NCBI GenBank assembly: GCA_032718865.1
Contig: JALUTQ010000035.1
Span: 620,001-684,000 of the forward strand
Direction: 5' to 3'
Origin: Tilletia caries
Taxonomy: Eukaryota > Basidiomycota > Exobasidiomycetes > Tilletiales > Tilletiaceae
Length of the DNA: 64,000 nucleotides
Every line of letters starts with the position of its first letter. Position 1 is the stretch's first letter. Shown piece after piece: positions 5,078 to 50,942 of the stretch. Below the pieces are notes generated by a model. That model saw only the letters and a program-made list of their open reading frames with translations. It searched no databases and was not told where the DNA came from. Made by a program: the position numbers and the translations under genes.

Positions 5078-5204
5078 GGGCCGCATGGAGGCAGCGGCAG
5101 ACGAGGGCCGCACGAGGCAGGAGGGCCGCACGAAGGCAGGCGAGGGCCGCACGAGGCAGCAGGGCCGCACGGAGGCAGGCGAGGGCCGCACGAAGGCAGG
5201 CGGA
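5078..5204 (-). repeat. CTCGTGCGGCC minisatellite, cassette 1
   Basis: About six imperfect ~20-bp units of the type GGGCCGCACGA(A)GGCAGGCGA. The same unit recurs at 38659-38712, 39778-39915 and 46221-46263. Here it lies at the downstream side of the exchanger exons on the minus strand. Confidence 0.85.
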
Positions 5205-5427
5205 CGAGAAGTCGAGAGTACATGTATCAGTGCACTCACCGGTTAAGAAGCTGGGTACGCTTGCTGCTCGTGAACTTCGCCTTCGGAGGGGTAGTGCATG
5301 GGTGCCTGTCTGGGAGGCTCGTACGAAGGGGGCTGAGCGGCGGAGAAGATTTTACGCGTCAGAGAGATGTGTATATGTTTGTGTGAGCGTCGCGACGCGT
5401 GCTGGAGCGGGGAGACAGATAACTCAC

Positions 5428-5822
5428 CGAAGCTGTCCTTGAGTCAGGGCAACAATGGCAACAATGAGCTCGACGGCATTCCGATTCACAGAAATGATTC
5501 AAACAGTCAGCCGAGTGCAGCGAAAGGGCAAACATCTGGGATTCCGTGGAAAGATACTCACTCCGAAGGTGACATTTGCGAGAGCGCTGAGGGTGGGACC
5601 GAGCTTGATGCTGACCTGCTCTGTGCAGTCACCAAGGAGCTTGGCGAGGGGAACGAGGGCGAGGAAGTTGAACACGAAGATTATGAGGGCACCCCAGTGC
5701 AGGTGCTCGGCAAGGACGCTGAGAGGAATGGGGACCATGAGCACGTTGAGCCATGATGAGGTGAAAAGCCACCAGAAGGACTTGGCGAAGGTGGGAGCGG
5801 AGGAGTGGGAGCTTCGGTGCAT
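5428..5822 (-). pseudogene. Ca2+/H+ exchanger (CAX/VCX1-type) exon fragments
   Basis: The first exon-like block (5' limit unclear, end 5562) encodes SSWLNVLMVPIPL and VFNFLALVPLAKLLG and ends SALANVTFG before a GTGAGT donor. A second block, 5480-5428, encodes NAVELIVAIVALTQGQLR before another GTGAGT. This is the first repeat of cation/H+ exchangers, including the GNAVELI core motif. The acceptor before the second block reads GG instead of AG, and no later exon of the ~400-residue protein is found. Downstream are unrelated Pro-rich codons and then the minisatellite. It is a captured or truncated gene fragment, not a working transporter. Confidence 0.75.
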
Positions 5823-5949
5823 GGGCAGGCCCAGTGCGTCTGAACCGTGATGGGCTGGAATGGCATAAGTGAGATCATGAACGCGTATCGACGTAGGGTA
5901 TCAAAAGGGTTGGGGGGATGGCAGATGTGGGACCGGGACGACTTACCAG

Positions 5950-6150
5950 TTGTGACTTGTGCCAGAGAGAAAGGCCCACCGAGCGAGCATTCATTCGCGG
6001 CGAGCGCGAGAGAGACCGAGTGAGCATTCAATCGCGGCGAGCGCGAGACATTCGCGGCGAGCGCGAGAGTGAGTCGAGGGAGCATTCGCGGCGAGCGCGA
6101 GAGTGGTTGATGGAGGAGAGGAACAAGCAGTCGGCGAGGCGGCGTCACTT
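5950..6150 (-). repeat. Leader module with tandem CGCGCTCGCCGCGAATG units, cassette 1
   Basis: On the minus strand it begins GCCGCCTCGCCGACTGCTTG, then TCCTCCATCAACCA, then about four units of (T)CTCGCGCTCGCCGCGAATG, then GGCCTTTCTCTC. The same order recurs on the plus strand at 38198-38395. It lies upstream of the exchanger exons. Confidence 0.8.
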
Positions 6151-6208
6151 ATGAAATGTGCACACACTTGGGACGCTTGAGACGCTCAGACTCCCCCGAT
6201 TCATTTTT

Positions 6209-6277
6209 TTCGGGTCTCAAACTTTAAAGTGTGTGCACACCCAATTTATCGAGTGTCATCCATTTTGCAGGTTGCTG
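6209..6277 (-). repeat. Right terminal inverted repeat of the Tc1/IS630-type element
   Basis: 69 bp, perfect inverted match of 135-203, followed by TA at 6278-6279. Confidence 0.9.
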
Positions 6278-6279
6278 TA

Positions 6280-7070
6280 TATATGTACGTCTATAATACT
6301 GATCTTCGCCAGATGACACTACGATTGGCAATAATTGACATAAATAAGCACGGAGTGCTCACGACCATCGGACGGTCGGACCACACGTCCATATTATTCC
6401 GTACCTGCTGGCGCCTGGCATCGAGGGACGCGCAGCATCATCCATCGCCTTGGCCGGTGATATACGCGTAAAGAGTGGACTTCCAGGACCTAAAGGTTGT
6501 ATGGGTGCCGCCGCCCATGCTCACCACGGGATCTGACGCTCGCCAGTCGCCGCGCTGCGCGCTGAGTAACCTGCGTCCTTTGTCAAACACTCATACTTCT
6601 ACAGAGACTAATAACGATATACAGCTTGCGTTCATTTCTGTTGACGCACGCTGCGCACCGCACAGCTTCCGTTACACTGATGATTCTGAATTCTGATCAC
6701 CTTTTTGTACTCAGGCTCCTCCGCTGTTCCGACAATCCCCTCCTGGCACTAAGTTCATGTGGAGTGAAAGTATCACAATAGCCCATAATCCAAGCTACAA
6801 GCTTCGCGCCTCACGCCTCACGTCTGAACATCTGAACTTTGAAGCTCATTCCTTCTCTGTTCTGTGCAAGAGTTGTGGACCGTGCTCATCAAAGACGCCG
6901 GCGCTGAAGTGTCTCGATAACCCGAGACAGCCATCGTCGAAGGCATAAAAGCAGCCATCCTCCGGCGATGTGACCTGTACCTGAACCCTTCACACCCACA
7001 TCCCGCCTATTCCACTCATTATTCCCCATTCCATTATTTCACTTCTTCAACCTTTAACTCCTTCTTCACA
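6280..7070. other. Intergenic; promoter region of the first secreted-protein gene
   Basis: No credible coding frame. The last ~130 bp resemble the region upstream of the second paralogue (11108-11248), including AGGCATAAAAG, so the duplication included the promoter. Confidence 0.6.
6944..6951 (+). promoter_or_regulatory. TATA-like box of the first secreted-protein gene
   Basis: CATAAAAG about 120 bp before ATG 7071, in a context (AAGGCATAAAAGC) conserved before the tandem paralogue. Confidence 0.55.
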
Positions 7071-8470
7071 ATGAAGTTCACCCTCGCCTCCACCCTCGCC
7101 CTCGTTGGCGCCGCCGCCGCCGCTACTGAGGGCCCCTACTCCATCGGCGCTGCCCCCGCCGGCACTGAGGTCGGTATTCTCAATTCCACCCTCTTGTGCA
7201 ATGTGTCGTCCACCGGCCTCAACCTCAAGAACCAGCAAATCCTCTTCGGTGTCGCTGCCCAGCTCCCCAACCGTGTCGGCCTGAACCAGCCCTTCTTCGT
7301 CACCGCTGCCACCCGCCTGATCGTCCCCCGCGTCGATCAACAACCTGGCCTACGGCTTCGGTGCTCGTACCTACGCAGGTAACGCCACCAAGGTTATTGT
7401 CAACGCCAAGGGCTCCACCCCTTCCTTCGTCGACGCTGCCGCGACTCCCCTCGCCATTCCCTCGGCACCCGTTGTCTCTGGCGGTGTCTCCATCCTCAAC
7501 GTTCCCGCCATCGGCCAGTCCCTCACTGTTGGTCCCTTCAAGGGCGCCACCGCCAACTCGAACATCGTCTTCTCCTTCGGTGACATCAACGCCATCGTCA
7601 AGACCTACAACTCCACCGGCGGTGCTACTTTCCTGACTGCTAACATTACCTGCCCCTCCCAGGCCCGCCCCGCCTCGCTCGCCTATGTCGCCGTCGGTGC
7701 CACGACCAACACTGCCACCGTCACTCCCCCCGCTGTTGCCTCCATCCCCACCATCCCCATCAACTCCACCGCTGGCCTTACCGGCTACACCTACAGTGAG
7801 TTTTCCTCAGTTCCGCACTCGAACACATGCAGACCGCCCTAGACTCACATGATCATTCTCTGGGACCTTGAACAGACTGCACCTTCACCGGTGTCGGCTC
7901 CACTGCCGTCAACGTCTCGCTCGGTGGTGTCAAGGCCAGCAACGCCCCCGTCGCCTCCGGCTCGACCATCGCTCTGTCCCAGGGCCAGGGCAACATCTTC
8001 TCTTCCCAGGCTCTCGTTAACCTGATCAAGGCCAAGTACAGCACCGTGAGTACTGTCTGCGTCTTCAAATTGTTACTCACCTGCGTACTGACCATTCACC
8101 ACTCTGGCACGTCCAATTCTTTCCCTCTTTCTAGGCCACCGCCTTCTCGCTCGCTGTGTCCACTCTCAACTTCAACGCCGTGAACGCCACCCCCTCGTCG
8201 AAGAACGGTCTCCCCTCCACCCAGACCTCGCCCATCCAGGCCCTTGCCGCCAACGCCGTTGTCGGTATCCCCAGCACCGCCCCCACCACCCCCCTCCCCG
8301 ACGTGACCTTCACCGCTGGTGCCTCGGGCAGCACCGCCCTCCTCTCCCTCGGCAGCGCCGCCGGTTCGCTCACTGTCTACAACAGTGCCAACACCGCTCT
8401 GGCCACCGTTGCCTTCTCGTGCCCCGCGCTCTCCCCCGCGGTCCCGATCTTCCCCTTCGACATCCAGTAA
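7071..8470 (+). pseudogene. Secreted protein, tandem paralogue 1, with a +1 frameshift
   Basis: Predicted exons are 7071-7795, 7876-8045 and 8135-8470 (about 409 aa if the frame is restored). The N-terminus MKFTLASTLALVGAAAAATEG is a signal peptide. Several N-glycosylation sequons and few cysteines follow, and the end is FSCPALSPAVPIFPFDIQ. At 7325-7329 a run of five C replaces the four C of paralogue 2, shifting the frame at RLIVP and giving a stop at 7380. The exon-length arithmetic works only if one base is removed. It is either a recent pseudogene or a sequencing/assembly error. The first of the three introns of paralogue 2 is absent here. Family: a beta-rich repeat pattern reminiscent of the actinobacterial DUF6801 group, by eye only. 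Confidence 0.75.
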
Positions 8471-11248
8471 ATGGATCGTCCTTTACGGCCCAGGGTGTTC
8501 GGAAAGCTTGCCTTTCCCGTGCCCAACCAACATTTCACGATTCGACAACGATTTCGCCCTTTCAGATTTCAACCCCCCCCCCCCCTTCTCCCATCCCTCT
8601 CTCATCACCCAAAACAGAATCAATGTATTTATCAACACCGTCACGGGTATCATCGGGTAGGACACTCACCTGTCCTTTCCGCAATGGAGCATGTGTCATG
8701 CCTCCCAACTCTTCTCGCCTGTGCCTGTACCCGTGCGTCGTGCGAGTGTTGCTTGACATGCGTCCTCCTCAGCTGTCAGGATCGGCAATTGGCCTTGTCT
8801 CTCGGGGGTCCTCCACTTTGAGAGTCTCCTGCTCATCTTGTCAACATTCTGTGCGGATTGGTACCGGAGTGTTCTCGGGGGGACCGTCATGTTGTCGAGG
8901 TGATATGTATTGGGAAAAGGAGTTTAAACAAAGTGACTGGGAAGAGGGTGTACATCGTAGACCAGCGGTCACGGATGCGTCTTCTTCCCTGGATCAATCT
9001 GGGAACCGTTCAACAGGATCAGAATCTCGGCGTGGAGAAGATGTTTGTACGAGAACACGGCCGATCTGATCACGTTTGCCTTTCCGCCATTTATACACTT
9101 TCTCGGGGGCACGCTCCTTTACACTCTGCTTCGAACTTCTGCTCTGAGGAAGCATTGAGGGATCTCCACCACCACACGGGCAGCAGAGCTAGGGGAACAG
9201 GCGGGTGGCTCGTTGATATAATCAAGTGGCGGTGGCTATGGAGACATGATGAAGAAGAACGTCGACGATCAACAACGCATATGTGTTTATACATTTAATA
9301 TTTATGTAATTATCAATTTCCCACGGTGTTGCGATTCTATCTGGTAGACAAAGGGAAAGCTTACATAATGAGCGTAATTTAGCGCAACAAACAAACAGTC
9401 GAAAAAGGCTGGTTGCTGGTTGCTGGTTGCTTCAGTTCTTGAGACTTGAGATTTGAGACTTCGAGAGCTCTCTTGTAATTGAAACGGAGATCGCCTGTCA
9501 AGTTTTGGAAGCACTTCCGTCGGTCTAATAATGTGCTCATACGCTTCAGTCCATTTGCCAGGCGAAGGTCATACAACTAACTACAGGCTTCATTGTTTAC
9601 TCTTATCATTCTTTGCGTTCGATGAACAGTTCAGGACTCAGGACGGTGTTGCCCGAAGGGTTCAGAGTCAACGAGCACGACGCACGACTGGCGCTGTTAG
9701 TATCAGCCCGCGGAAGCCAGGGCTGGCGAGTCTGATTGATATCTAGTTTTTTCTATGATCCGTGCTCGATGGGCTATGGACAATACATAGCACGAACTGA
9801 CTGATACCTCATACCTGCACTGTAAACTCTTGCCATTCACTGAGCTCGCAAGCATGAGCTGACTGATGCAATGTGCCTGAAGTATTGAGCTGTTTCTTTT
9901 GAGTGAACACCTGTCTAACTATGGAAGTTCTTCAGCATATCACTTCTGCCTCATATCCCCGATCAAGGAAACATCGTCAGGCCTCCGAGACGTGAGCAAC
10001 ATACCGTTCTGTCAGGCCCGTTGGCTACGGGATGCCAATAATCATATCACTACTCTTGACAAAGGAGGCATACGCAAGCGTGGAGCCAGCCGCGCCGGCA
10101 ATATCATATTTTTGTGATGAACGATGAACAGGGGACTGAGTATGCACGAATGGTGTATGTGGTGAGGGACTAGGAAGGCCTTCACAATACATAGCTTCCA
10201 CGGAAGGGTCAAATATTCCACTTGTAGGCAGAAGGAAAATTTCGGCGGGAAAGATCTCGAGGTTAGACTGGGTCATAAGCGCTAAGGTCACAGAAGCTGC
10301 TGGGCTCGGGCCTCCGGGGTAAATCAGCTACATCCGCGATAATAGCCACTCCAGAAGACGTTTGTTTCAGCTCCCAGATTTCTCAATTCTCATGGCCAGA
10401 TATCTTCTATGTATGTATAATGTAACTGACTTCCATGCGTCCCGCTGACCGCTGCGCTGAGCGAACCTCTCCTGTAATTACCATCGGGCATCAGGCGTGT
10501 CCAGGCCGGCAGCAGGTACGATTATACCTCTACCAAACTTCGGTAGTAAGATTATAGCTAATTGACAAGCATCTACTCATCTCTAAGTCCAAGAAAGAAA
10601 GCGGACCTTGTCTCAAAACTGGCTGGTTTTGGCGTGATGCTCCATCTCCGGCGTCAGCTTCGGCAGCAGATTGCGTCGAACATCGTTTCAAGAGGCTCAA
10701 CCCTTCTCTAGGAGCTCATCTCCATCGTTATTTGTTCATCGTCCTCAACGTCCCATACTCGCCAGAGGGCACCTGCGCTATATCTTCAGCCTTGGTATAG
10801 TCGATTCTATCACGTCTTACATGTACTGTTATGGGGGTGCGCACGGTTCCCGTCGTCCTGGATCAGGTCTTCCTCGTCGCCAGGATACCTCACGGTCCTG
10901 ACGCCTGGCTCGTAGAATTCAGCTCGGGCCTTTGCGGGGTGAAATATTGTGGAGAGGGAGTAGAAACTCGCGACTGTCTCATGGGTGAGCATCACGATCT
11001 ACAATGTGAGGATCTAGAGTCTGGTTACCACCAGCCCCTCTCTTCCGCAGAATTGTTGGACCGATCTCATCGAAATACCGGTGCGGTGCCACAGCCATCT
11101 CGGGACACGAAGCAACCTTCGCAGAAGGCATAAAAGCGGCCCTCATCCAGCGATGTGACATGGATCTGGACTCTTCACCCTACCATTCCTCTGCCCCTAC
11201 ACTGCCTCCATCCAAACCCTCCTATCAAACGTCTACCTGATTTCCACC
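8471..11248. other. 3' region and long spacer between tandem paralogues
   Basis: 8471-8570 is the 3' region and is nearly the same as the 3' region of paralogue 2 (12693-12790), showing that the duplication unit includes it. The rest to ~11100 has only short, unconvincing frames. A GCTGGTTGCTG triplet repeat is near 9410. The last ~140 bp are promoter. Confidence 0.55.
11129..11136 (+). promoter_or_regulatory. TATA-like box of secreted-protein paralogue 2
   Basis: CATAAAAG 113 bp before ATG 11249, in the same GAAGGCATAAAAGC context as paralogue 1. Confidence 0.55.
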
Positions 11249-12692
11249 ATGAAACTCGCCCTTGCCTCTTCTCTTGCTCTGGTCGGCGCCGCTTCTGCTG
11301 CGACGTCGGGCCCGTACAATCTCGGCGTCTCCAACTCCGGCTTCGAGACTGGTGTGCTCAATGCCACTCTCCTGTGCAATGTGACCTCCACTGGTCTCAA
11401 CCTCAAGAACCAGCAGATCCTTTTCGGCGTTGCCGCCATCTTGCCCAACCGCGTTGACGCAACCCAGCCCTTCAACGTCATCGCTGGTACCCGTCTGATC
11501 GTCCCCGCCTCTATCAACAACCTCGCCTACGGTTTCGGTGCTCGCTACTATGCCGGTAACGCTACCAAGGTCATCGTCAATGCCCAAGGATCTACACCTA
11601 CGTTTATCGACGCTGCTACTAAGCCTCTCCCCATCCCCTCCGCACCCGTTGTCTCTGGCGGTGTTTCCGTCCTCGAGGTTCCCGGAAAAGGTGGCGTCAT
11701 CACTGTCGGTCCATTCAAGGCAGCTTCAGCCAACTCCAACATTGTCTTCAGCTTCGGCGACATTGCCGCTGTCGTCAAGACCTACAACGCTACCGGTGGC
11801 GCCACTTTCCTCGTTGCCAACATCGCCTGCCCGGCTCAGGCTCGTCCCGCTTCCCTGGCATTCGTTGCCTCTGGCGGCGCGGGCAGCACCAACATTGTGA
11901 CTCCCTCTGGTGGTGGAGGTGAGTGGATCTGTCCTTGAGCTGCGAACGCTCTAGGACACTACGCTGACCACTTATGGGCTCGTACAGCTATTACAACAAT
12001 TCCCATCAACTCTACCGCTGGATCCACTGGCTACACCTACAGTAAGCATCCGAATCGGCTGAAGAGTCGTCGTCGTCGACGTGATTGCTGACATGAATTT
12101 GCTTCACACAGGCTGCACCTTTGATGGCATCGGCACCTCGCCCATTACGCTGTCCGTCGCTGGTGCCAAGACCAACAATGCCGCTGTTGCTTCGGGCTCC
12201 AACGTCGCCCTCTCCCTCGGACAGGGCCAGATCTTTGTCGAAAAAGCTCTTACGGACCTTTTCATTGCCAAGTACCCCACTGTGAGTCACACCGCGCAAA
12301 ATTCACTTCCATTTGCTCTGACTCTGACCATATTCTTCCTCCTGTGTCATCAGGCTAATGGTTACAAGCTGAACGTCACTACCCTCAACTTCCTCGCCTC
12401 CGGTGCCAGCCCCGCCTCCAAGAACGGTGTCCCCTCCACCGGCTACGCCACCCCCATCACCCCCGTCTCGTCGACCACGACCGCCCTGACCATTCCCGAC
12501 GGCGCTCCTACCAACATTCTTCCTGACATCTCCTTCACTGCTGGTGCCTCCGGCGGAACCGCCCTTCTCTCCCTCGGCAGCGCCGGCGGTATCGTCACAA
12601 TCTACTCGGGCAACGCCGTTGTCGGCACCTCTGCCTTCTCGTGCCCGGCTCTGTCTCCCGCCACCCCCATCTTCCCCTTCGACATCCAGTAA
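11249..12692 (+). CDS. Secreted protein, tandem paralogue 2 (intact)
   Basis: Exons are 11249-11918, 11988-12041, 12112-12281 and 12354-12692, all GT-AG and phase-consistent; 410 aa. Signal peptide MKLALASSLALVGAASA. The mature protein is Ala/Thr/Val/Gly-rich with several NxT/S sites. It contains two related halves: an N-terminal unit with LLCNVTSTGLNLKNQQ and FGVAAILPNRV, and a C-terminal unit beginning YSCTFDGIGTSP. The conserved end is FSCPALSPATPIFPFDIQ. It is probably secreted or wall-associated. The alternation of Cys-containing beta-like units recalls DUF6801-type bacterial surface proteins, but I cannot confirm homology. No catalytic motif is seen. Its neighbours are paralogues at 7071 and 19204. 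Confidence 0.88.
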
Positions 12693-13009
12693 ATGGATCG
12701 TCCTTTACGACCCAGGGTGTCCGAAAAGCTTGCCTTTCCCGTACCCAACCAACTTTTCACGATTCGACAACGATTTCGCCCTTTCGGATCTCAAACTTCT
12801 CTTCTCCCATCCTTCTCCCATCGCCCAAAACGGAATCAATGTATTTATCACCAGCATCAGGGGGATAATCGGGCAGGATACTCACTTTCCCTTTTCGCAA
12901 TGGAGCATGTGTTATAACTCCAAACCTTGCTCGTCTGTGCCTGTCCGTCGTGCGTGTAAGGACGCACCTCAACTGTCATGTCTTTGAGGTCTTCCAAGCA
13001 CATAACATA
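12693..13009. other. 3' region of paralogue 2
   Basis: Non-coding; nearly the same as 8471-8760 after paralogue 1 (for example GATCGTCCTTTACG and CACGATTCGACAACG). Confidence 0.7.
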
Positions 13010-13484
13010 CGAGGCCGTTGTCAAAAGTATCCGGACACTAAATTTTTAACCATACGTTTACTAAGTGTTCGCCTCTATTTCACCTTAAGTCAAACTTGGT
13101 CAGTATAATCTGTAAAAATACACCTCTTAGCTGACCTTCTAGCGAGAGCGCAGGAGCATCGGAATATGTGACTCAAAAAATTGAGAAAAATTGAGGAGCT
13201 GGGTTGAGTAAGGTGGGTGTGAAGGAGTTTGAAATCACCTAGTAAATTACTAATTGAAATCGTTTCTTCCTCTTTCCACTTAGAGCAACCTGTCTTCCAA
13301 GTCAGAGCTGGGAAATCTCCAAAGAGAGAAGTTGTTCTCCAGTATAGAGGCTTTCCAAATGGCCCGTCATTGAGCGTCTTCCATATCCATGTCTTTGAGT
13401 TGCATCGAGAGCCCAAAACAGGCGATTACTTAGTAAACGTATGGTTAAAAATTTGGTGTCCGGATACTTTTGCAAACCACCTCG
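13010..13484. mobile_element. Tc1/mariner MITE with CAAAAGTATCCGGACAC ends
   Basis: 475 bp, flanked by TA at 13008-13009 and 13485-13486. The inverted ends are ~50 bp long: CGAGG, a 7-bp variable stretch, CAAAAGTATCCGGACAC, then AAATTTTTAACCATACG and TTTACTAAGT, with few mismatches. There is no transposase; it is non-autonomous and unrelated in ends to the Tc1-type element at 135-6277. Confidence 0.88.
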
Positions 13485-13618
13485 TATGTGGGTGGCCACG
13501 AAATTTCCCCGGTAAAACACGTCACAGGAAACAAAAACTTGATCCCCCTCCAACGACCTGCGCTGCGGCTGACCCTCACCTTCGATTCAGCATTGTTGCA
13601 AGTCCCTGTGAAGAAGCG

Positions 13619-14143
13619 ATGGCTACAGCCAGCAACGAAGCGGCGCCCGCGGTAGGCGAATTCCAGCATTCCTTGTGAGCAACAACTGCCTAGCACACCA
13701 CTCAGAGCGAGAAGGAACAGACTCTGACATTTGGACTGACCCCCGTCCGTCCTCTCTTTCCGGCATATGTCGAAAGAACACTGACACTGCCCTTTCCTGA
13801 CGAACGGTCGGCGTCAATCGTGAGGGACGTTCTCCGTGTTGATCGTCAGATTCGACCCAAGGAAGTCACCGTCGCGTACGAAGTTTCAGGGAGCGATGTG
13901 ATCGTGTGAGTTTCCCTCTGATTGAATCATGCTGGAGATTCCCTTTTTCTTGCTGATGATCCTTCGTTTCTTTGTTCGCCCTGGCCATGTCGTCGGCTAA
14001 GTACGATCGACGCGACTTCTGTCCGTCAACTCAGGCTGAGCGTCAATGCCGCGTTGGAGAACACCGCTCTGATCGTGAAGACGATCGATGCCTTCGGAGC
14101 CTCAGCACAGCATATACCTCGGATTCAAGCGAAGGCAACGTAA
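13619..14143 (+). CDS. PCC1: Pcc1 homologue, EKC/KEOPS complex subunit
   Basis: Three exons fit in phase: 13619-13651, 13706-13905 and 14002-14143; 124 aa. The fold-defining motifs of the Pcc1 family are visible: TLTLPFPDERSASIVRDVL (strand and first helix), RPKEVTVAYEVSGSDVIV (two strands), then IDATSVRQLRLSVNAALEN and LIVKTIDAFG. In other fungi Pcc1 dimerises and contacts Kae1 in the complex that makes the t6A modification of ANN-decoding tRNAs. The first intron starts GTAGGC; a longer first exon ending at TGA 13678 is the alternative. The tail after DAFG is longer than usual and not conserved-looking. Confidence 0.82.
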
Positions 14144-14539
14144 GGGAAACATGATCTTTCTCTGTCTATCCTGTTTGTGCCTGGCACTGGCTCCCGGCAC
14201 TGACATGCCGAAAGCAGGGAGCGTTCATTGAACAAGCTTCCGGAGTTGCGAACGAAGTCAGAATTGCGAAAAGCAGACTCGGATTCATCAAGGGACGGGG
14301 TGTATCGAGGCTCGACGGAAGCGGTACATATGTGTACAGAGAAGAGAGGAGTGGAAGAAGAACAAGTAGGACTGTGTCGGCGATGAGATGAGGGAAGCCG
14401 ATAGCTTGTGCGAGCTCTGACAGTTGGAACCTTTGACAAGCAGAGAAGTGGAAAGTCGCGAGGGCTCAGATCACCGAACAAAGCTGAGCCCGGCCGAAAG
14501 CGAAGCAAGCGCAGGAGAAGGACATCAGCTTTTTGTGTT
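14144..14539. other. Intergenic between convergent genes
   Basis: 3' regions of PCC1 (plus) and of the GATA-like gene (minus). A minus-strand open frame crosses it but is low-complexity and has no supporting motif. Confidence 0.5.
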
Positions 14540-15733
14540 TTATGACTCGAATGGGTGAGGCGGTTCGGGTTGGGTGTTGTCGAGGTAGTGGGGGTGGCCC
14601 ATGCTCTGCGCCGAGAGTTGGGAGAGGGGCTCATTCAGCTGTTGTTGGAGATGAGCAGCGGCAGCGGCCGCGGAAGCCGTCGCCGCCGAAGCTGCATCGC
14701 CTCCGTGATCTTCGTTCATGGTGCTGTTGGTGATACCAGCGTCCTGGTCCTCCGCCTTCCGCTTCCTCCATCGACGCTGGTAGCAGGTGTGGCAGCACAT
14801 GTCTCCGTCGAAGCGACGCCACTGTCTGGATACCTTGGCTTCGCAGTCTGCACAGTTGTTCGAGGTGATTTCGAGCGAGTGTCGGGCTTTGCGACGGGCG
14901 ATGGTGTCGTGCTCGTTCTCGGGTGGAGGCAGATGCGAGGCCGTACGCTTGAGCCCAGCCATACCGCCGAGCATGCTGTTGTTGAGCGATGATGATGGAC
15001 TGCTGAGATTGACTCCGAGTTGGGCACCAATCGCGCGCAGAGCAGCTATATTGGCAGTGGGATTGTGAATGCTGCCATTGTTCCGGAGCGGGGTCCCGCT
15101 TGAAAGGTTGGAAAGCCCGTTTGTGTTGCTGGGCTCGCCCATGGAGAAACCGGACGCGCCGGGAGCCCGAGACGAGGCAGGCAGACCGGATGCGCCGGAG
15201 CCAGGCGAATGAGGGACTGCAAGTCCGAGGTGGGCAGCAATGCTCCGAGCGGCGGCATAGTTGTCGAGATCATTGCTGACATCGGCGGCTGAGCCCACTG
15301 AGTTGTCACCGGCGCCGCGTGATGTACCGGGATCTATGACGAGAGCGGCCGAGAGCGCGGCATCGACGACTTCCTGGTTGGCAGTTGCGCTTGCATTCTC
15401 AGCAGCAGCGAGGACAGCCTCAGCCTCGTCGGCGTCGCGACAGGCTATGTTGGCACGGTCACGGAGAGCCTTGGCACGTGCGCGGACCTCCCGGACGGTT
15501 TCGGCTGCAGTTGCGGCGCGTCGAGCCGCATCGACGGCGCGATTGGCGGCTGTGATGGCGTTCTGGGTGATGCTGTGCTGAGCCGCAGCGTGACTTGCGG
15601 CTGGATTCGGCGACACGTGGGACGCTTGATTGGCCACTGGGTTTGGGGCGGTCGCATCCGGGGCACCCACTGCACCTTGAGCATTAGGGTCGACGTTGAG
15701 ACCATTACGATGCTGATCCTCGGCGGACGACAT
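14540..15733 (-). CDS. GATA-like single zinc-finger protein
   Basis: Intronless, ATG 15733 to TAA 14540, 397 aa. A C-terminal finger CADCEAKVSRQWRRF...CCHTCYQRRWRKRK has C-x2-C-x16-C-x2-C spacing and a basic tail, close to fungal GATA fingers (usually x17-18). Residues ~50-130 are Ala/Arg/Glu-rich, predicted helical or coiled coil (AVDAARRAATAAETVREVR). The rest is Asn/Ser/Gly/Ala-rich and ends with an Ala run and QLQ. It is probably a nuclear DNA-binding regulator. It is divergent from the related gene at 16448 with which it shares a 714-bp upstream region. Target unknown. Confidence 0.82.
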   Translation of the reverse strand: MSSAEDQHRNGLNVDPNAQGAVGAPDATAPNPVANQASHVSPNPAASHAAAQHSITQNAITAANRAVDAARRAATAAETVREVRARAKALRDRANIACRDADEAEAVLAAAENASATANQEVVDAALSAALVIDPGTSRGAGDNSVGSAADVSNDLDNYAAARSIAAHLGLAVPHSPGSGASGLPASSRAPGASGFSMGEPSNTNGLSNLSSGTPLRNNGSIHNPTANIAALRAIGAQLGVNLSSPSSSLNNSMLGGMAGLKRTASHLPPPENEHDTIARRKARHSLEITSNNCADCEAKVSRQWRRFDGDMCCHTCYQRRWRKRKAEDQDAGITNSTMNEDHGGDAASAATASAAAAAAHLQQQLNEPLSQLSAQSMGHPHYLDNTQPEPPHPFES

Positions 15734-17657: not shown

Positions 17658-17783
17658 TCTCTCGCTGCAGCTTTTCTCACACGATCCACCCAACGATTGC
17701 ACGAACGATGGCAATTGCTTTGTAATCTATCAGACATACAGCAAGTACGATTTTTGGTTCTTCGGCGACCTTTCGACACCTTG

Positions 17784-25899: not shown

Positions 25900-25940
25900 T
25901 GGTAGCTCCGCCTCGTCCCCTACAGAGACTCTATCCAAAA

Positions 25941-27786: not shown

Positions 27787-27792
27787 GATAAC

Positions 27793-30700
27793 GTGGCGGT
27801 GCGGGAAACCCCCGTTCCGCCGCCCCCACCTCTACCAGGCGAAGCATGGCCGGTGCGCTGGATCCTTGATTCCGGCGCCACGCACCACTTCATCAACGAC
27901 GTCAACCTGCTGGAGGACGGTACCCTGACGAGGGACAGCAAGATGATCCGAATCGCCGATGGCAAGAAAATTGCGGCCACCCACCGGGGCTCCTTGACCA
28001 TGCGAGTCCGGACCACCCCTGTCCTCGTTATCACTCTCCATAATGTCTACGTCGTCCCGACGTTCCCGCACAATCTGCTGTCCGTACAGAGATTGAATCA
28101 AGCTGGTGTGGATGTCAATTTCCCACACACAGCCTCCACCACCCTGTTGATCAGCAACGGGTGTGAACACAGACTAGAACGCGACGCACACAGTGGTGCC
28201 ACTGTTGTGTTGTCTCGCCCATACGGGCCACATCGCGCTACCGGAGCGGTTATAGCGGTTCATGAGTGTGGTCTAAGGTGCTCTGCATCACCTCCGCATG
28301 GGCCGATCCTTATGCCGGGGCGCTCTGCATCACGTCCCGCCCCGTCCCCCTGTTACACCTCGGTGTATTCGCTCCACAGGGAAGGGGCACATCCCTCAGG
28401 TACGTCCTCACAGACCGTACCAGCTGCTAGATTGAGAACCCAAGATGACTCCTCTACCCCATGTTCCACAGAACACCTGACTGCCACGGTGGCAGCTCAG
28501 GAGGGCAAAGAAGGAGCGTCTGTGGGAGCAGCAGCGAAGGGGATAGGGGACATTGAGGTCGCAGAGAAGGGAGGGGATGAGGGTGGGACCGATGGAGGAA
28601 AGGGCGATCAGGCTGGTGAGGGGGGGGGACCAGGCACATCGTGCTCTTACGCAAGAGCGAATGGTCATTCGGTGGCATCAACGGTTCGCACACATGAGCT
28701 TCGGCTCCATTGCGCGACTCATTGGGCTCGGTGTCGAAGGACTGCGGCACCTCAACAAGAGTGCAGCTCTCCGCCTCGTGGACCGGGAGGATCGCTGCGA
28801 TGCGTGCGCGATCTCCAACCTGAAGGAGGCTTCCTTCAAGTCATCGACCTCTCGGGCCGACGACATCGGTGACCTCGCTCACTGCGATCTTTCGGGGCCG
28901 TATACAGGAAACAACGAGTATACGCACTGTCTTAGCACCCTGGACGACCATTCCCGAAAAGGATGGACGTTCCCGATCGCCGACAAGTCCAGCACAACAG
29001 TGACCAAGGTTCTACAGCGCTGGGCTCGTCAAGTGGAGACATATACCGAAAAGAAGATCAAGACTCTCCACACCGACAATGGTACGGAATTTGACAACAA
29101 TGCGATGGATTCCTGGGCTGCGAAGGAAGGAATCAGCTGGCGATGGACAGTACCAGGCTCCAGCGAGCAGAATGGGCGGGTGGAACGGTTTCAGGGGGTT
29201 ATACAAGAGCGTGGACGTGCGATGTTGACGGCGGCGCGGCTACCGATTGGTTTCTCGGTATGCGGCGTACTTGGTCAATCGCACGCCCCACCGCAGTCTC
29301 GGGTACCGGATCCCACAGGAGCTATGGTCCAAACAACCTGTCGACCTGACCATGCTTCGGACCTTCGGGTGTTTGTGCTGGACGATGCAAGATGCCCGAC
29401 ACCGTTCGGACGGGAAGCTGTCGGCCCGAGGCGTGCGTGGGACCTTCCTTGGCCTGTCGGAGGACCGGAAGGGATGGCTGGTGTACGTACCGTCAGACGT
29501 CACAAACCCCCTTCGATACAGCAGATCTGTTTTGTTCGATGAGACTCGGACATACGACGAAGGCCGGTCCCTCGACATCCTCCAACAGCACGCATCACGA
29601 CCCGACGACCATTTGGAGATGGTCCTTCCTTACCCACGACGTCGTCGGCGCCGCGTCGGGGAGGGGGAGAAGGCTCTCGATGTTCCTTCCGACTTGCGCG
29701 ACGACGAAGAACTGGGCGGCATCACAAGAGACGGCGAAGTTACCATCTCGACTCTCCCAGTTCCAAGCACTACGACAATGGACCCACTGGAGACGAACGA
29801 GGAGGAGCGGCACGAGGACGCGATGGAGCAGGAGGGGGTGTAAACGAGGAAAGGGGGGGCTAGTGATGCAGGAGGTGGTAATTGGAGAGAAAGACGAGGA
29901 TCTAGCGATGCAGAAAGGGGACATGGTGATGCAGGAGGGGGGGTACTTGGGGAGAAGAACGGGCTGGAAGAGGCGTTGGAGAATGGGGTGGCGCAGAAGG
30001 AGGTTCGGGTCGGAGATGAGGTGCATGAGAGAGGGAAAGGAGGATCTGTGGAGACGAGAGGGCAGGAGAGGGAGTCTGTGGGGAAAGCGGGTCAGGATGA
30101 TGTGGTGAAGGGCTTGGAGGATGATGGGAAACGGAAAGGGAAGATAAAGGGATCGAAACCCATGCGCAAGAGTCCGAGGCTGCACGATGTGCAAGCACTA
30201 GGAGCATCCCTACAGCTGCGCAAGTTTGATGACGAGTGGTCCAAGATCGAGCTGGTTGGTATCACGGAGTGCTCGGAGGTCGAAGGGATGGCACTGCTGG
30301 CAAGCCAAGGACGCGAGGCTCGGACACTAGACGGACAGCTTCTCGAGCCGACCACATTCGCTCAAGCACTGTCGCGCTCGGATAAGGACGAGTGGAAGGC
30401 GTCCATGGACGACGAGCACAAATCGCTAATCGAGATGGGTATTTGGGAGCTGTGCCACCCACCCCCGGCCGGAAACTCATTGGCTGCCGGTGGGTCTACA
30501 AGGTTAAGACGGACCCGGAGGGACGGGCGATTCGGAAGAAGTCTCGGCTGGTGGCGCAAGGGTTTACGCAGGTAGAAGGGATCGACTACGATGAGACGTT
30601 CGCTCCAGTGGCCAGGCTCAGCGCCCTACGGATGATGGTCACTTTGGCCATTCAGCTCAACCTCAGGCTCCACGGGATGGACGTCAAGACGGCGTATCTC

Positions 30701-31972
30701 AATGGGGAATTCGACGTCGACATCTACATGCGACAGCCCCCTGGGTATGACGACGGATCAGGGAGGGTGTGCCGTTTGCTCCGGACCCTCTACGGGCTCA
30801 AACAATCCGGGCGGTATTGGTATCACACGCTGCGCGACAAGCTCCTTGAGGCAAGCTTCAAACAGCTGAAGAGCGAGCCATGTCTTTTCCACAAGACTAC
30901 GAGTCAAGGCCCAGTCATCATCCTCATCTACGTCGACGACGTGGCGATCGCAGCGCCAACAGAGGAGATGATCAACGAGATCAAAACGCAATTCACTTCC
31001 TGGTTCAAGATGACGGACAACGGCCCATTGACGTCGATGCTCGGGATCCGGATCAACAGATCAAAGTGCGGCCGGATTGCGACGATGAGCCAAACTGGCT
31101 ATGTTGACCAGATCCTTCAGCGGTATGGAATGGCCGAATGCAAACCCTCCGACACACCAATGGCAGAGGCTTCCAAACACCTCCGGCCCAGAGAGGGAAC
31201 GGCCGCCACAACGCAGGAACGACACTACTTCGCGGGCCTAATCGGATGTCTGCTGTGGCTTGCACAGGGCACGAGAATGTACATCGCGTTCCAGGTTGGA
31301 AAGCTGGCGCGCTTTATGGCAAACCCCTCCGAAGAACACGTAGCGGCAGCAAAGAGGGTCCTGCGATACCTCGCGGGGACACGGGAACTTGGGCTCCGCT
31401 TCCGGCACAGCGAGCTCGCTCAGCTGGTCGGGTATTCTGACTCGGACCATGGCGCCGACCCGACCACTAGACGGAGTGTCACTGGCTACGTCTTTTACCT
31501 CTATGGAAACCCCGTCACCTGGAGGTCGAAACTTCAAGACACGGTCTCGATATCATCGACCGAAGCCGAGTACATTGCGCTGTCGGAGGCGACAAGGGAA
31601 GCTATCTGGGCGGTACAGCTGTTAGAGGAGCTATGCCTTCGGGTACGGGAGCCAGTGGATATGTTTACCGACAACACTGGGGCAGAAGCGCTCGCACGGA
31701 ACCCAGGGTCCCATCATCGCACAAAGCATATCGGCATTCACCATCATCTCGTTCGTGACAGTAACAACGACAGCACGATCAAGGTCCAAAGGGTACACAC
31801 CGACGATAACCCAGCCGACCTCCTCACAAAGACGGTCACATTCGCAAGGCTCACCTCGGGGAGGAAGCAGCTGGGGCTGGGGTCAACGGCACTGGTAGCC
31901 GAGTTCGATTGTTTCTGGGCGGCGCTCACCGCGAGCACGGGAGGGGGAGTTGAAAGGGCGTGCTCGGGATGA
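27793..31972 (+). pseudogene. Copia pol (protease, integrase, RT, RNase H) with frameshifts
   Basis: The protease site DSGATHHF is at about 27868. A frame change near 28630 leads to the pre-integrase WHQRFAHMSFGSI region and the integrase core (HCDLSGPYTG, LHTDNGTEFDN, SSEQNGRVERF). A second change near 29250 continues into YLVNRTPHRSLGY. TAA 29841 closes that frame; another frame from ~29976 leads to a further change near 30480. After that the reverse transcriptase is intact (KSRLVAQGFTQVEG, DVKTAYLNGEFD, LYGLKQSGRYWY, IYVDDVAIAA) and is followed by RNase H (VGYSDSDHGAD, SISSTEAEYIALSEA). At least four disruptions mean it cannot make a full polyprotein as written. Confidence 0.9.
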
Positions 31973-32180
31973 GACGCTACGTGGAGGTACGCTCGGAGGG
32001 AAAAAGGGTGACAGCAAGGGGAAGGTATCGAAGAGCTTCATGAATGTATCCTCCTAGCACTCTCCTTCACGCAATCAGACAGACACACACCTTGAGCCAA
32101 GAATACTGGTCAGAGGTACGTCTGAGATTGCCCTACTCCCTGAACCTCTGCGCGCTAGTACGGAGGACCGTTACTCAACT
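31948..32180 (+). repeat. 3' LTR of the copia element
   Basis: 233 bp, direct repeat of 25668-25899; one extra A and one C-to-A change. Confidence 0.93.
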
Positions 32181-32185
32181 AGAGC

Positions 32186-35900: not shown

Positions 35901-36521
35901 CGATGGCGAGGAGGGAGCCAAGGTAGCTCATGGCGACGTGTGCCCAGATATAGGTGCCGGAGACGCGGGTCATGGAGATGCGGTCGAGGAAGGAGATGCC
36001 GGATCGGGAGCGGGATGGGTTCCTTGCGTTGTATGCCAGGTTGACAGGCATGAGGACGACGGACATGAGGATGGCGAGGGCGAGGGTGAGCCATCGACAC
36101 ATGCGGAGGAAGCGGAGGAAGGTGACTGCGTCGAGGCCGATGATGGGGAGCAGGTCTGCCTCGTGGTATTTGAATAAGGGAGGCAGCCAGGAGAAGAAGC
36201 CATCTTCGATCCGTGGAGGAGCCTTCTCATTTTTTTCTGCGTACTTGAGCTTGGGTGCATATACAATCTGTTGATGCACGGGGAGTGGAGGGATAAAGAG
36301 GGTGAGCGGGGCGAGCAGAGGGCAAGCGGAGCGTGGTGTTGGTGGAGACTGACCTTGTTGTTGGGCCTGAGCAGCTGGAAGAGGAAGATGGTTGCGAGGG
36401 AGAAGCCGATCCATGATCCTGCCGAGATGGCCACTGCGGGGGCCTGCACCTGAGACGCCTGCGTGAGTGCGAGTGTGGTGAGGCACAGGGGATCCTGGGA
36501 GTCTTGGTCGCAGTCGGACAT
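32929..36521 (-). CDS. CSC1/OSCA-type calcium-permeable stress-gated cation channel
   Basis: Exon 1 is 36521-36354, the intron 36353-36268 (86 nt), exon 2 36267-32929; 1168 aa. The first membrane segment (VAISAGSWIGFSLATIFLFQ) is in exon 1, and the junction gives LRPNNK-IVYAPKLKYAEK, the conserved N-terminal linker. A long cytosolic loop (about residues 200-390) with RTLMITGVKKQM and later IIWKNLNLT precedes the RSN1/DUF221 membrane domain (about 400-740) with ~9 hydrophobic segments. The C-terminal ~350 residues are Gly/Gln/Pro-rich with polyglutamine runs, longer than in most family members. It is a plasma-membrane or endomembrane mechanosensitive channel by family. Upstream DNA has GGTCGT tandem repeats. 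Confidence 0.93.
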
Positions 36522-37971
36522 GGCGATGGGACGCGAGAGTCCTGCTCTTCGACCTTGCGGTTGCGGTCCTCGTTGTCGGCGTGGTCGTGGTCGTGGTCGT
36601 GGCTGCGGGCCTCCTGTTGAGGTTCAGAGTGGCGACTGACTACTGACGATGCTTTGCTCCAGCGCTTCTGCCTGGCCGTAAGATGAGACAACGGGGAGCG
36701 AAGATAAAGGAAGAGCGAGCGCCGAGCGAGCTTGGCTTGGGCCTCCTTTCCAGCCGCTGATCGCTGATCCCAGTATAAGTAGTGTGTCCGCTGATGTACA
36801 GTATCCACGTCTGTGCGCTCAGCTCGAGAAAGGAACTTGAATATATACAGTGCTGATGCTGATGCTGATGCTGTCGGCGTCGTTGTTGCTGCCGTCACCA
36901 CCGTCGCTGCTGCTGATGACTGCGGCACATCGCGCGTCCTCTGTGCTGCTTGATGAGGTCGGACAAAACACATGACTTGGGGGGTAGCCGACAAGCGGGC
37001 GGGAGTCTGAACCTCAGAGTCTGAGAAGTTCACGTACAAATCACACACTCTCCAAGAATTCATTGACTCTACCTGCTACCTGCTGAAGGCCTTGGAATAC
37101 TTATAAGTAGGACAGGGGAGATATACACAGAAGTGACGTCGCTGAATTGCTCTGATTACACGTCCCCCCACCCCCCCGCGGAGCGACCGGACGTCGTGGC
37201 AAAGGAAAGGAGGGAGAGCGAGAAAATAGAGAGAATAAAAGGAATCAGAGAAGAGAGAGGGGAGAGAGAGAGCGGCGAGACAATGGGGACGAGGGAGGGT
37301 AAACATGAGAGGAGCGAGGACTACTACAGAGAAGGAAAACGAAGTGAGGAGAGAGATATGTAATAGCATGGCGTGACGAGGGGTGAAGCAGAATGCAGAT
37401 TACTGCGACGGCGTGCGTGTCAACGAAGTAGACCAGAGACGAAGTGAGGAGAGAAAGAGTCAAAGAGACAAGAAGACGGAGACAGGAGAGAAAGATGAGT
37501 CATGAGAGGGAAGTGAGGAATAGTAGCAGAGAAGACGGAAGTGGGACATGGCATGCCCGCGTGCCAATGGACGAGAGAGAGGCGCAATAGGTTCTGGTGT
37601 CATTGAAGCGGAAAACGCCTGCGCGTAGCGACTGGCGGGCGAGAAAGGGGGAAGGAGAAAGGAAAGAGGTAACAGGTAAGAGAAAAGAGAGAGATTGTGT
37701 GAGTCCAAAGTATAGAGAAGCCAGAAGGGAATAAGTAATGATTAGCAAACATCGTAAAAAAGAGAGATCAGCAACGAGCAGGAGCGGGACTGTGGGAATG
37801 CGCACTGGCCCACGAAGTAACCACTAGACATGTACAGTAACGCACAGTACCGTGGATTTGTCCAATCGGAATGGAGGTATATACTTAGAGACCAGCTGAC
37901 AGTGAAAGGGCGAGAGGATGTGGAAGGGAAGGAGAATTTGCCAACGAGGCATGTGTGATGAGCTGTGAAGC
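36522..37971. repeat. Intergenic with a purine-rich plus strand
   Basis: 36522-37100 is the upstream region of the channel gene (GTGGTC repeats near 36580, GATGCT repeats near 36855). About 37190-37760 is strongly purine-rich on the plus strand (GAGAGAG, GGGAGGAA runs). Frames there are low complexity and not supported as genes. Confidence 0.6.
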
Positions 37972-38090
37972 TCAGTGGAAAACGTAATGGACGATCTATG
38001 GATGAAAAGTGGATAAAAAGGTGGAAATGGTCCGAAAATGGGCTGGAAATGAATATGGCCATTTCAATCCCGGAGCTTTGTCGCCAACCT
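37972..38090 (+). repeat. Dispersed repeat, diverged copy
   Basis: GTGAAGCTCAGTGGAAAACG, then AATGGACG and ATGGATG, recalls the inverted segment ending at 50107 and the copy at 4821. Confidence 0.4.
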
Positions 38091-38197
38091 TATTTCCAAA
38101 TTAAGGTTTTGGATCAACTTGTCTGGATGCACTGTTTCCCATGTGGCAATTTTCACCAGTTCCCATGTGGCGGCGGCCGCCGGCCTCTCCCTTTCGA

Positions 38198-38395
38198 TGC
38201 CTCGCCGCCTCGCCGACTGCTTGCTCCCTCCTCCATCAACCAGTTACAGACAACACGCTCACTCTCGCGCTTGCCGCGAATGCTCGACTCGGACTCGCGC
38301 TCGCCGCGAACGAATGTTCGCTCTTGCCGTGCATGCTCGTCCTCCGCCGGCCTTTTTCTCTCACAGCTTCCCTTCTTCGTCCTCATCGGCAAGGG
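38198..38395 (+). repeat. Leader module with CTCGCGCTTGCCGCGAATG units, cassette 2
   Basis: CTCGCCGCCTCGCCGACTGC, then TTGCTCCCTCCTCCATCAACCA, then three to four diverged CTCGCGCTYGCCGCGAA units, then GGCCTTTTTCTCTC. This is the same order as the minus-strand leader at 5950-6150. Confidence 0.8.
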
Positions 38396-38660
38396 CAAAA
38401 TTGAGGAGCTGGGTCCAGACTCCAGAGTTGGCTCCGTATGAAGGCAACGTGGATGTCATCGTGTCTGAGTGGATGGGGTGAGTACATGCGATATAGCCAC
38501 CTGTCAAGAAAAGGAGATATTCTGATCGATCTGCTGCCTCCGGCTACTTCCTGATCTACGACGCCATGCTGCCTTCCGTGCTCCATGACCGAGACCTGTA
38601 CCTCCGCAAACCCAGCCAAATCAACACCGACAATGGCACCTCGACCGACGGCGGTATCCT
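38393..38660 (+). pseudogene. Protein arginine methyltransferase exon fragments
   Basis: The first block has GKIEEL, a frameshift, then PYEGNVDVIVSEWMG ending at a GTGAGT donor. The second block begins YFLIYDAMLPSVLHDRDLYL and continues to TDGGIL. VDVIVSEWMGY is the double-E loop of class I arginine methyltransferases. The intron between them (about 67 nt) ends GG rather than AG. N-terminal SAM-binding motifs and the C-terminal barrel are missing. The second block runs straight into the minisatellite. It is a captured or truncated fragment. Confidence 0.78.
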
Positions 38661-38712
38661 CGTGCGGCCCTGCGGCCTCGTGCGGCCCACGCTTGCTGCC
38701 TCGTGCGGCCCT
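38659..38712 (+). repeat. CTCGTGCGGCC minisatellite, cassette 2, first block
   Basis: Three units of CTCGTGCGGCCC(A)CG type between the methyltransferase fragment and the ManC remnant. Confidence 0.85.
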
Positions 38713-38717
38713 GAGAC

Positions 38718-39765
38718 ATGTGGTGCGTTGTTCCCGCCGGTGAAGCCGGGACCCGTCTCTGGCCGCTCTCGCGCGAGTCATACCCGAAATTCCTCCTCGA
38801 CTTCACCGGAACCGGTCGGACGCTGCTCCAGTCCACATGGGACCGTCTCGGCGTCTCTTGCCCCTCTGCGGCTCGTCCCGGCTCATGGTCGTCACCGGAT
38901 CAGCTCACGTTGGAGGCGTGGGTGCCCAGCTTCCCGAGCTGTCCGAAGCCAACTTGCTCGCAGAGCCTTCGCCCAAGGAGAGCATGGCTGCCATCGGTCT
39001 TGCAGCCGCCGTCTTCAAGCGTCGTGATCCAGAGGCGGTTCTCGGCTCCTTTGCGGTCGATTACATCATCTCTGGTCGCGACGCGTTCGAAGGCGCAGTC
39101 GCAGAAGCTGTCGAGACCGCCAAAGCAGGGTACCTCGTCACCATCGGTATCGCGCCCTCGCACCCCTCCACAGGCTTCGGTTACATCAAGCTCGGCGAGA
39201 AGCTCAACCTCGGCGCGGCCCCGAACGCGCGACGCGTCACCGAGTTCAAGGAGAAGCCCGACGCTCGTACCGCATCGGCATACCTCGCCACAGGCCAGTA
39301 CCGCTGGAACGGAGGCATGTTCGTCGTCCAAGCCAAGACCCTCCTCAGTCCAACAGTCCATGCCGGCCCTGTACGAAGGCCTGGATCAAATCGCAGCCGC
39401 ATGGGACACCCCACAACGCGCCGCGGTCCTCTCCGAGATCTGGCCCAAGCTCGACAAGATCGCAATCGACCACGCCGTCGCAGAACCAGCAGCCAAAGCA
39501 GGACGCGTCGCCGTCGTGTCCGCGACTTTTGGTTGGGACGACGTCGAAGACTTCGCCTCCCTCGCCGACCTGCTCCCCTCCGAGAAGGGCGAGGCATGTA
39601 TCCTCGGCGATCCCCGTCTCGTCGTGACCGAGTCCCAGGCGGGCGGTCTCATCGTGCCCGCGGCCGTCCGGCCGAGGGCGTCCCTGGGTGTGGACGACGT
39701 CGTCATCGTCGACACGCCGGACGCGCTCCTTGTCACCACTCGTGCACGCACGCTCGCAAGAGGTC
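38718..39765 (+). pseudogene. Bacterial-type mannose-1-phosphate guanylyltransferase (ManC-like), frameshifted
   Basis: Begins VVPAGEAGTRLWPLSRESYP, the nucleotide-binding signature of ManC-type enzymes. A frameshift near 38860 leads to LMVVTGSAHV, LLAEPSPKESMAAIGLAAAV, LVTIGIAPSHPSTGFGYIKL, VTEFKEKPDA and YRWNGGMFV. A second shift near 39345 leads to KIAIDHAVAEPAAKAGRVAV, FGWDDVEDF and VVIVDTPDALLVTTRAR. A third, near 39755, precedes QEVKKIV. Fungal GDP-mannose pyrophosphorylase (Psa1 type) has a different N-terminus and length. The pattern recalls actinobacterial enzymes, suggesting ancient transfer. Minisatellite flanks both sides. Not functional as written. Confidence 0.8.
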
Positions 39766-39777
39766 AAGAAGATCGTG

Positions 39778-39915
39778 GCCTGCCTCGTGCGGGCCTGCTG
39801 CCTCGTGCGGCCTACGCCTGCTGCCTCGCCTGCCTCGTGCGGCCCACGCCTGCTGCCTCGCCTGCCTCGTGCGGCCCACGCCTGCTGCCTCGTGCGGCCC
39901 TCGCCTGCCTCGTGC
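39778..39915 (+). repeat. CTCGTGCGGCC minisatellite, cassette 2, second block
   Basis: About six units combining CTCGTGCGGCC and CACGCCTGCTGC. Confidence 0.88.
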
Positions 39916-39916
39916 G

Positions 39917-50902: not shown

Positions 50903-50942
50903 GTCAAGTCTAAGTCGGACTTAAGTTGCCAAGTCTGACTTA

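Follow-up and report, generated by a model that had tools for sequence, protein, structure and literature searches.

Many cases are known from plants of cut-and-paste transposons that have captured host-gene fragments; the animal reports are more recent, and the fungal ones are few. Pack-Mariner elements have been described in rice and maize (PMC8903248), in a paper whose main text does not contain the word 'fungi'. Gap-filling and fork-stalling/template-switching (FoSTeST) models have been proposed for animal Pack-TIRs (PMC8277862). In Pyrenophora tritici-repentis, hAT elements were reported to carry out transduplication and one family of the Tc1/mariner type to contain an open reading frame (ORF) (PMC3538342); gene-capturing Helitrons were described in Pleurotus (PMC4289320). 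Repeats of mariner or Tc1 type appear in two papers on Tilletia genomes (PMC9172201, PMC10684912), and the phrase 'gene capture' does not occur in the excerpts of PMC9172201. In this study, we analysed 64,000 nucleotides of Tilletia caries DNA (contig JALUTQ010000035.1, positions 620,001 to 684,000; hereafter the window), which hold two distant cassettes with a common leader and minisatellite and with differing host-gene fragments. Cassette 1 is the cargo of a Tc1/mariner element. We consider it likely that each cassette was assembled as a chain of host-gene fragments inside a terminal-inverted-repeat transposon of the Pack type (also called transduplicating), and that template switching joined the fragments.

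The published systems, taken here from excerpts of the cited papers, resemble this locus in part. The plant Pack-Mariner/Pack-TYPE elements are also mariner-type inverted-repeat elements with host coding DNA, sometimes from several loci; however, they are non-autonomous, whereas the Tilletia element is 5-6 kb long and has its own transposase frame, a leader, a minisatellite and permuted exons (PMC8903248). The animal Pack-TIRs likewise contain non-element fragments within inverted-repeat elements, and template switching with later transposition was proposed for them, but their duplicated regions are small (median 224 bp) and the excerpts describe no module found with two families (PMC8277862). 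The Pyrenophora elements are fungal DNA transposons with an extra gene between inverted repeats. Apart from the transposase, each family holds a single additional gene or ORF (plus, in the hAT form, an ORF of unknown function), whereas the Tilletia elements hold chains from at least two host genes that differ among copies (PMC3538342). The Pleurotus Helitrons share gene-fragment capture in a basidiomycete, but no Helitron feature was found here, and inverted repeats, a TA duplication and a DDE transposase were found instead (PMC4289320). Among the open-access titles and abstracts covered, no fungal Tc1/mariner family with multi-gene fragment mosaics was found. What is unusual here is the combination of multi-gene mosaics, permuted exons and one leader-minisatellite module beside two transposon families. 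These mosaics form a related series in a compact fungal genome, and since their donors are known, their differences are stepwise and their joins are visible at base level, the order of capture can be read. They also allow template switching to be tested against fragment insertion, and the leader and minisatellite to be tested as a hot spot.

Cassette 1 and its Tc1/mariner element

The genome searched was a 38.1-Mb assembly of 40 contigs (C1 to C40), in which the window is C30:620001-684000. Cassette 1 lies within a Tc1/mariner element of 6.1 kb (135-6277) with TA on each side, whose features are:

135-203, plus strand: terminal inverted repeat with the tip CAGCAACCTGC; TA at 133-134
251-1361, plus strand: DD34E Tc1-like transposase; exons 251-1076 and 1222-1361, predicted intron 1077-1221 (our splice reading)
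2314-4757, minus strand: open frames of an accessory protein with a tandem motif of about 65 residues, present in two C34 copies
4793-5027, minus strand: right end of transposon family X, shortly past the minisatellite; 83% to the X copy L080 (C30:1216440-1217660)
5096-5202, minus strand: CTCGTGCGGCC-type minisatellite
5277-5328, minus strand: GPR1/FUN34-type fragment of 52 bp, 100% to C34:804815-804866
5333-5830, minus strand: Ca2+/H+ exchanger fragment with introns kept; donor C4:1946129-1946644, 93%
5831-5974, minus strand: segment that separates the leader from the exchanger fragment and includes an intron-like stretch, GTAAGT...CAG
5975-6150, minus strand: leader with four CGCGCTCGCCGCGAATG-type units
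6209-6277, minus strand: opposite terminal inverted repeat; TA at 6278-6279

The inverted repeats of the element have 76-nt arms that are 99% complementary. The transposase frame matched Pfam DDE_3 (E 2.8e-14; HTH_32 was below cut-off), and when read across the predicted intron it contains D, D and E, with 34 residues from the second D to the E. The stretch 251-1165 is 99% alike at three places on C34, and a protein search gave one match, in Tilletia maclaganii (53% over 57%). The accessory protein frames have a gap of about 0.48 kb in the third C34 copy (C34:1388-1391 kb). Their search also gave one match, 99% over 54% of the query, to a T. controversa protein that is partial, and the frames scanned had no match in Pfam or NCBIfam. 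Two tandem motifs of about 65 residues at 2639-4402 look SAM-domain-like by eye. The window copy includes about 1 kb of sequence not present in the C34 copies, and a MITE-like repeat of about 104 bp (2300-2403), with 20 further genome copies at 92-99% and two at 76-81%, sits in the part that is absent on C34.

Other two-ended copies were found at C34:943-948 kb, C34:1386-1391 kb, C34:1564-1569 kb, C21:9.6-12.4 kb (2.8 kb, no transposase seen), C35:1382-1393 kb (possibly composite, with 11.2 kb between its ends) and C36:1297 kb (1.24 kb, both Tc1 ends, no leader). TA was present at both ends in all seven two-ended members inspected, namely the window copy and these six. The family has further members outside this set: two of 1.24 kb, at C21:32 kb and C7:861 kb, and one lone end, at C30:734 kb. 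The exchanger cassette occurs at seven places; six of the seven have TA at both ends, and six of the seven share one right end. In the four long copies, alignments end at the element ends, with the longest blocks 96-99% alike and the leader blocks 79-86% alike. One terminal inverted repeat is split by 0.3-0.5 kb in the three long C34 copies (948, 1391 and 1569 kb), whose outer flanks are dissimilar.

The TA duplication, the inverted repeats and the IS630/Tc1-type DDE transposase place this element in the Tc1/mariner superfamily. These results show that cassette 1 is cargo of an element with its own transposase frame, and that the cargo recurs in dispersed copies. Judged from ends and flanks, the cargo probably moved with the element to new sites. 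Cassette 1 is thus a Pack-type (transduplicating) DNA transposon, with host fragments between inverted repeats and donors elsewhere; it departs from the non-autonomous elements of plants (PMC8903248) in that the window copy carries a transposase frame. The original prediction had proposed a gene-fragment-collecting element that it could not match to a known class. The collecting of fragments was supported by donor loci on several contigs, mosaic joins and dispersed copies, but the lack of a class no longer applies to cassette 1, a Pack-type Tc1/mariner element with inverted repeats, a TA duplication and a DD34E transposase.

Read from the leader, cassette 1 contains the leader, a piece for which no donor was found, the exchanger fragment, 4 bases, the GPR1/FUN34-type fragment, further sequence with no donor found and the minisatellite, followed by the X right end and the accessory protein. 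The piece at 5831-5974 had no match beyond three C34 copies of the element. The exchanger passenger matched a vacuolar calcium ion transporter in PDB (E 4.7e-12), and the 52-bp donor (C34:804815-804866) makes up the N-terminal part of an open frame that contains a GPR1/FUN34/YaaH domain. Introns are still present in the exchanger piece, which was therefore copied from DNA, and processed (cDNA) capture was rejected. Exons are permuted in the copies on C35, C21 and at C36:939 kb: after the leader comes the C-terminal half of the exchanger gene (C4:1947169-1947639, 96-98%), and only then its N-terminal part, from 1946388-1946390 onward. The copy at C36:939 kb keeps the exchanger further, to 1946692, and no 52-bp piece was seen in it. 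The element copies compared, a set without C21, have common substitutions and a common 6-bp gap against the C4 exchanger gene. A reading of two separate captures was set aside on this evidence, and the shared changes would fit a single capture and copying from an older allele equally well.

Cassette 2 and transposon family X

Cassette 2 is a mosaic related to cassette 1. It has the same kind of leader and minisatellite, placed after the left end of transposon family X, and its features are:

37970-38152, plus strand: left end of family X, upstream of the leader; 93% to L080
38198-38357, plus strand: leader
38358-38389, plus strand: chloride-channel fragment of 32 bp; donor C22:1029518-1029549; shared with the leader copy at C1:499 kb
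38390-38660, plus strand: arginine methyltransferase fragment; donor C5:1281281-1281544, 94%
38658-38712, plus strand: minisatellite at the joint of the two large fragments
38714-39779, plus strand: ManC-like fragment; donor C35:461559-462617, 96%
39780-39915, plus strand: terminal minisatellite
39916-40022, plus strand: tandem repeat of another kind, GGAGTCGGATT, directly next to the minisatellite

Motif matches in the window were compared with expectation and with 100 shuffles. The leader unit CGCGCTCGCCGCGAATG (up to 3 mismatches) had six matches against 0.46 expected, four at 5992-6099 (minus strand) and two at 38266-38312 (plus strand), and 0 of the 100 shuffles reached six. The minisatellite core CTCGTGCGGCC (up to 1 mismatch) had 15 matches against 2.1 expected, again reached by 0 of 100 shuffles: four at 5106-5194, three at 38659-38710, five at 39784-39899, one at 46237 and singles at 23105 and 46408. 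The sequence TCCTCCATCAACCA is exact at 6104-6117 (minus strand) and 38229-38242 (plus strand); with 2 mismatches it gave three window matches, which 1 of 100 shuffles equalled and which are weak evidence alone. The predicted pair of distant cassettes with a common leader and minisatellite was therefore borne out.

The prediction that the passengers differ, a Ca2+/H+ exchanger in one cassette and an arginine methyltransferase with a ManC-like gene in the other, also held, by PDB or Pfam matches and a donor locus for each. The methyltransferase donor frame matched PRMT3 in PDB (E 3e-11) and Pfam PRMT_C, and the ManC-like passenger has the domains NTP_transferase and ManC_GMP_beta-helix. The donor of the latter is an open frame of 449 codons, whereas the cassette copy is split over two frames. 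This donor (C35:461300-462800) is apparently intronless and had a bacterial GMP_PMI match (E 1.2e-74, below cut-off); it may have been acquired horizontally. The predicted passenger list was correct for the genes it named but overlooked two short pieces, the 52-bp GPR1/FUN34-type piece of cassette 1 and the 32-bp chloride-channel piece of cassette 2, whose donor frame gave Pfam Voltage_CLC just under the cut-off (E 3.7e-5). Likewise, the order of leader, exons and minisatellite holds in general, but cassette 2 has the minisatellite twice, between the large fragments and after the second. Histone H3-type coding sequence follows cassette 2 from about 40245, by our reading; the neighbouring gene on the other side of the cassette is PHM7-like.

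The X repeats of the window (37964-38105 and 5027-4792) are found as a pair at C4:2178 kb, C30:1216 kb, C40:168 kb and C27:980 kb. The X copy L080 is about 1.15 kb long, has inverted repeats starting GCTCAGTGGAAAACG and is without the leader; an apparent 5-bp duplication, ATCAT, was read by eye in this single copy. No transposase was found for family X, which is unclassified. Directly left of the X end beside cassette 2, 997 bp (36972-37968) are 97% alike to C23:451151-452135. The flank 36000-38105, which was intended as a clean control, is half repetitive, and only 36000-36971 is without another match.

Leader copies, joins and the proposed capture step

The genome-wide search proposed in the original prediction found the leader at no fewer than 14 places after matches were merged (leader counts are lower bounds), the exact minisatellite 14-mer GCCTCGTGCGGCCC 13 times, and parent genes on C4, C34, C22, C5 and C35. 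Twelve of the 13 exact 14-mers are inside leader cassettes and one is at window position 46236; the reversed pattern had 0 genome occurrences. The third minisatellite copy that had been predicted at 46221 is present (46220-46263, minus strand) but has only 2.2 units and no leader. Minisatellite units were found within 2.6 kb after the leader at 8 of the 14 leader sites listed. These eight sites amount to only two independent contexts for the coupling, since seven are members of a single exchanger-cassette family and the remaining one is cassette 2. A related minisatellite, CTGCCTTCGAGCGGCC, lies in an apparent intron of a duplicated gene at C25:552760 and C33:301362, with no leader in the 9 kb around each.

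Leader and minisatellite are thus not strictly coupled. The prediction had named their independent occurrence without gene fragments, or a leader that is a simple conserved promoter, as findings that would speak against it. Neither was clearly seen. Of the 14 leader sites listed, 12 have passengers whose donor lies elsewhere in the genome; at C27_722 a gene match follows the leader, and at C34_928 no passenger was assigned. At 11 of the 14 sites the leader is attached to terminal or subterminal Tc1 sequence, which is not what an ordinary conserved promoter would look like, although it may still have promoter activity. The leader as nothing but a Tc1 terminal region was rejected, as cassette 2 and the C1 copy have a leader without a Tc1 end, an X end lies upstream of cassette 2, and the 1.24-kb Tc1 copy is two-ended but leaderless. 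The leader adjoins sequence of two unrelated transposon families, Tc1 at the 11 sites and X at cassette 2 and probably at the C1 copy. At the latter (C1_499), which has about 70 bp upstream of the leader in common with cassette 2, the leader appears to adjoin the inner part of an X end, judging from the alignment with cassette 2; L080 itself has no match on C1. One tentative view, which we hold to be rather improbable, is that leader and minisatellite form a portable capture module, a slot bordered by tandem repeats that repeatedly receives gene fragments and that passed between Tc1/mariner and X, making its holder a gene-shuffling element.

We also examined the passengers of other leader copies. 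C1_499 has a 78-bp chloride-channel piece, then 878 bp like C34:1584174 (72%), of which part is also like C32:520832 (84%), and then 653 bp from C6 (94%). Cassette 2 and C1_499 thus start from a common chloride-channel piece but continue with different genes, so the pieces were added in steps. Our translation suggested a dolichol-phosphate mannose synthase piece among the C1_499 passengers, a reading that is unconfirmed; a structure-sequence search of one donor frame and a Pfam scan of four gave no match, and the C6 piece had no family or structure-sequence match. C4_744 and C34_1324 have a common donor region, C34:461996-460310, which holds a DUF1295 gene together with the end of a convergently oriented chorismate synthase gene; their internal deletions differ. 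C4_363 has a piece of an MFS-type gene family (relatives on C36, C9 and C1; Pfam MFS_1 just under cut-off) with exon-internal deletions, then a C39 piece. Its intron-looking gaps are these deletions, one with 7 bp of shared sequence, and processed capture was rejected here as well. Some 0.9 kb downstream of the leader in C27_722, a long frame has a myosin-head match.

Twelve breakpoints were read, five between separate donor stretches and seven internal; joins with the minisatellite were outside this scoring. The join between chloride-channel and methyltransferase fragments in cassette 2 shares 0 bp, as does that between the chloride-channel piece and the next gene in C1_499 (against the 72% donor), and the permuted exchanger join shares 1 bp. 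The exchanger-GPR1 join and the C1-to-C6 join each carry 4 bases from neither side. The internal breakpoints, in C34_1324, C4_744 and C4_363, share 0, 0, 0, 1, 1, 0-2 and 7 bp.

Kept introns, donors on several contigs, permuted order and repeats at joints fit a model in which the template is switched while a gap is repaired or replication has stalled, and the product then transposes. A break or stalled fork inside the element would come under repair, and synthesis would switch template to unrelated genes, copy a stretch including introns and switch back. Errors of switching would leave tandem repeats, the completed mosaic would travel as part of the transposon, and later rounds could add, trim and permute pieces beside the leader. 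The capture step itself, whether template switching or fragment insertion at breaks, is inferred from its products.

The second of these routes, in which extrachromosomal circular or linear gene fragments were inserted at transposon breaks by end joining, is possible but in our judgement unlikely. The joins of donor stretches, with 0-1 bp shared or 4 bases from neither side, are in its favour, and the permuted exchanger, in which 1947639 is joined to 1946388, is the product expected of a linearised 1.25-kb circle. It would, however, need further events to explain the differing internal deletions in two copies and the changes beside a constant leader. More doubtful still is a chance pile-up by nested insertion and segmental duplication only, with the leader as an ordinary repeat or promoter. 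The window is repeat-rich and the upstream flank of cassette 2 is duplicated (C23, 97%) beside the X end, but the same combinations of gene pieces occur at scattered places within transposons that have both ends and a TA duplication, the exact 14-mers are nearly all in leader cassettes (12 of 13), and gene pieces are joined directly at base level. The original prediction's alternative, a Helitron-like rolling-circle capture with the leader as fixed 5' end and a variable 3' end, is very improbable: the leader is indeed constant while the passengers downstream vary, and gene-capturing fungal Helitrons are published (PMC4289320, in excerpt), but cassette 1 lies between inverted repeats with a TA duplication and a DDE transposase, on which grounds a Helitron was rejected for it, six of the seven exchanger-cassette copies have a common right end, cassette 2 adjoins the end of another inverted-repeat family, and no Rep/helicase domain was found among the ORFs scanned with Pfam, a scan that was not exhaustive. 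Helitron ends (no inverted repeats, no target duplication, TC...CTRR) were not seen at cassette 1, and cassette 2 was judged on its left side only.

Several observations weigh against the template-switching reading of both cassettes as transposon cargo. The capture event itself was not seen, only its products. Most breakpoints read are internal deletions and not gene-gene joins, similar joins are expected from capture of linear or circular DNA at breaks, and a circle fits the permuted exchanger order equally well. Cassette 2 has the X left end at 37970, but no right transposon end was found downstream within the sequence examined, nor for C4_744, C4_363, C27_722, C1_499, C34_1324 and C36_939; these seven may therefore be relics or non-mobile units. 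The side-by-side repeats at the cassette 2 flank mean that part of this mosaic could be a nested insertion. Hairpins in leader or minisatellite as a trigger of template switching were rejected, as their DNA folds no better than shuffles (z 0.68, -0.08, -0.13 and 0.75), so nothing found explains capture at these places. For annotation, these cassettes call for caution: they resemble exchanger, methyltransferase and ManC-like genes, yet they are fragments, and some at least are mobile.

Further repeats and genes of the window

The window also contains a Copia-type LTR retrotransposon at 25718-32180, with 182-bp direct repeats that are 99% alike and with gag-type and reverse transcriptase frames. 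A DNA transposon at 50936-53038 has a Tc5/DDE_1 transposase frame and inverted repeats with 89-nt arms (100% complementary) and adjoining 38-nt arms (95%). A tnp2-type (Transposase_21) frame lies at 42028-44280 and a frame with a hAT dimerisation domain at 62367-63683. Three related genes stand in a row at 7067-20592, with blocks 62-88% alike; one of their frames matched DUF6801 just above the cut-off.

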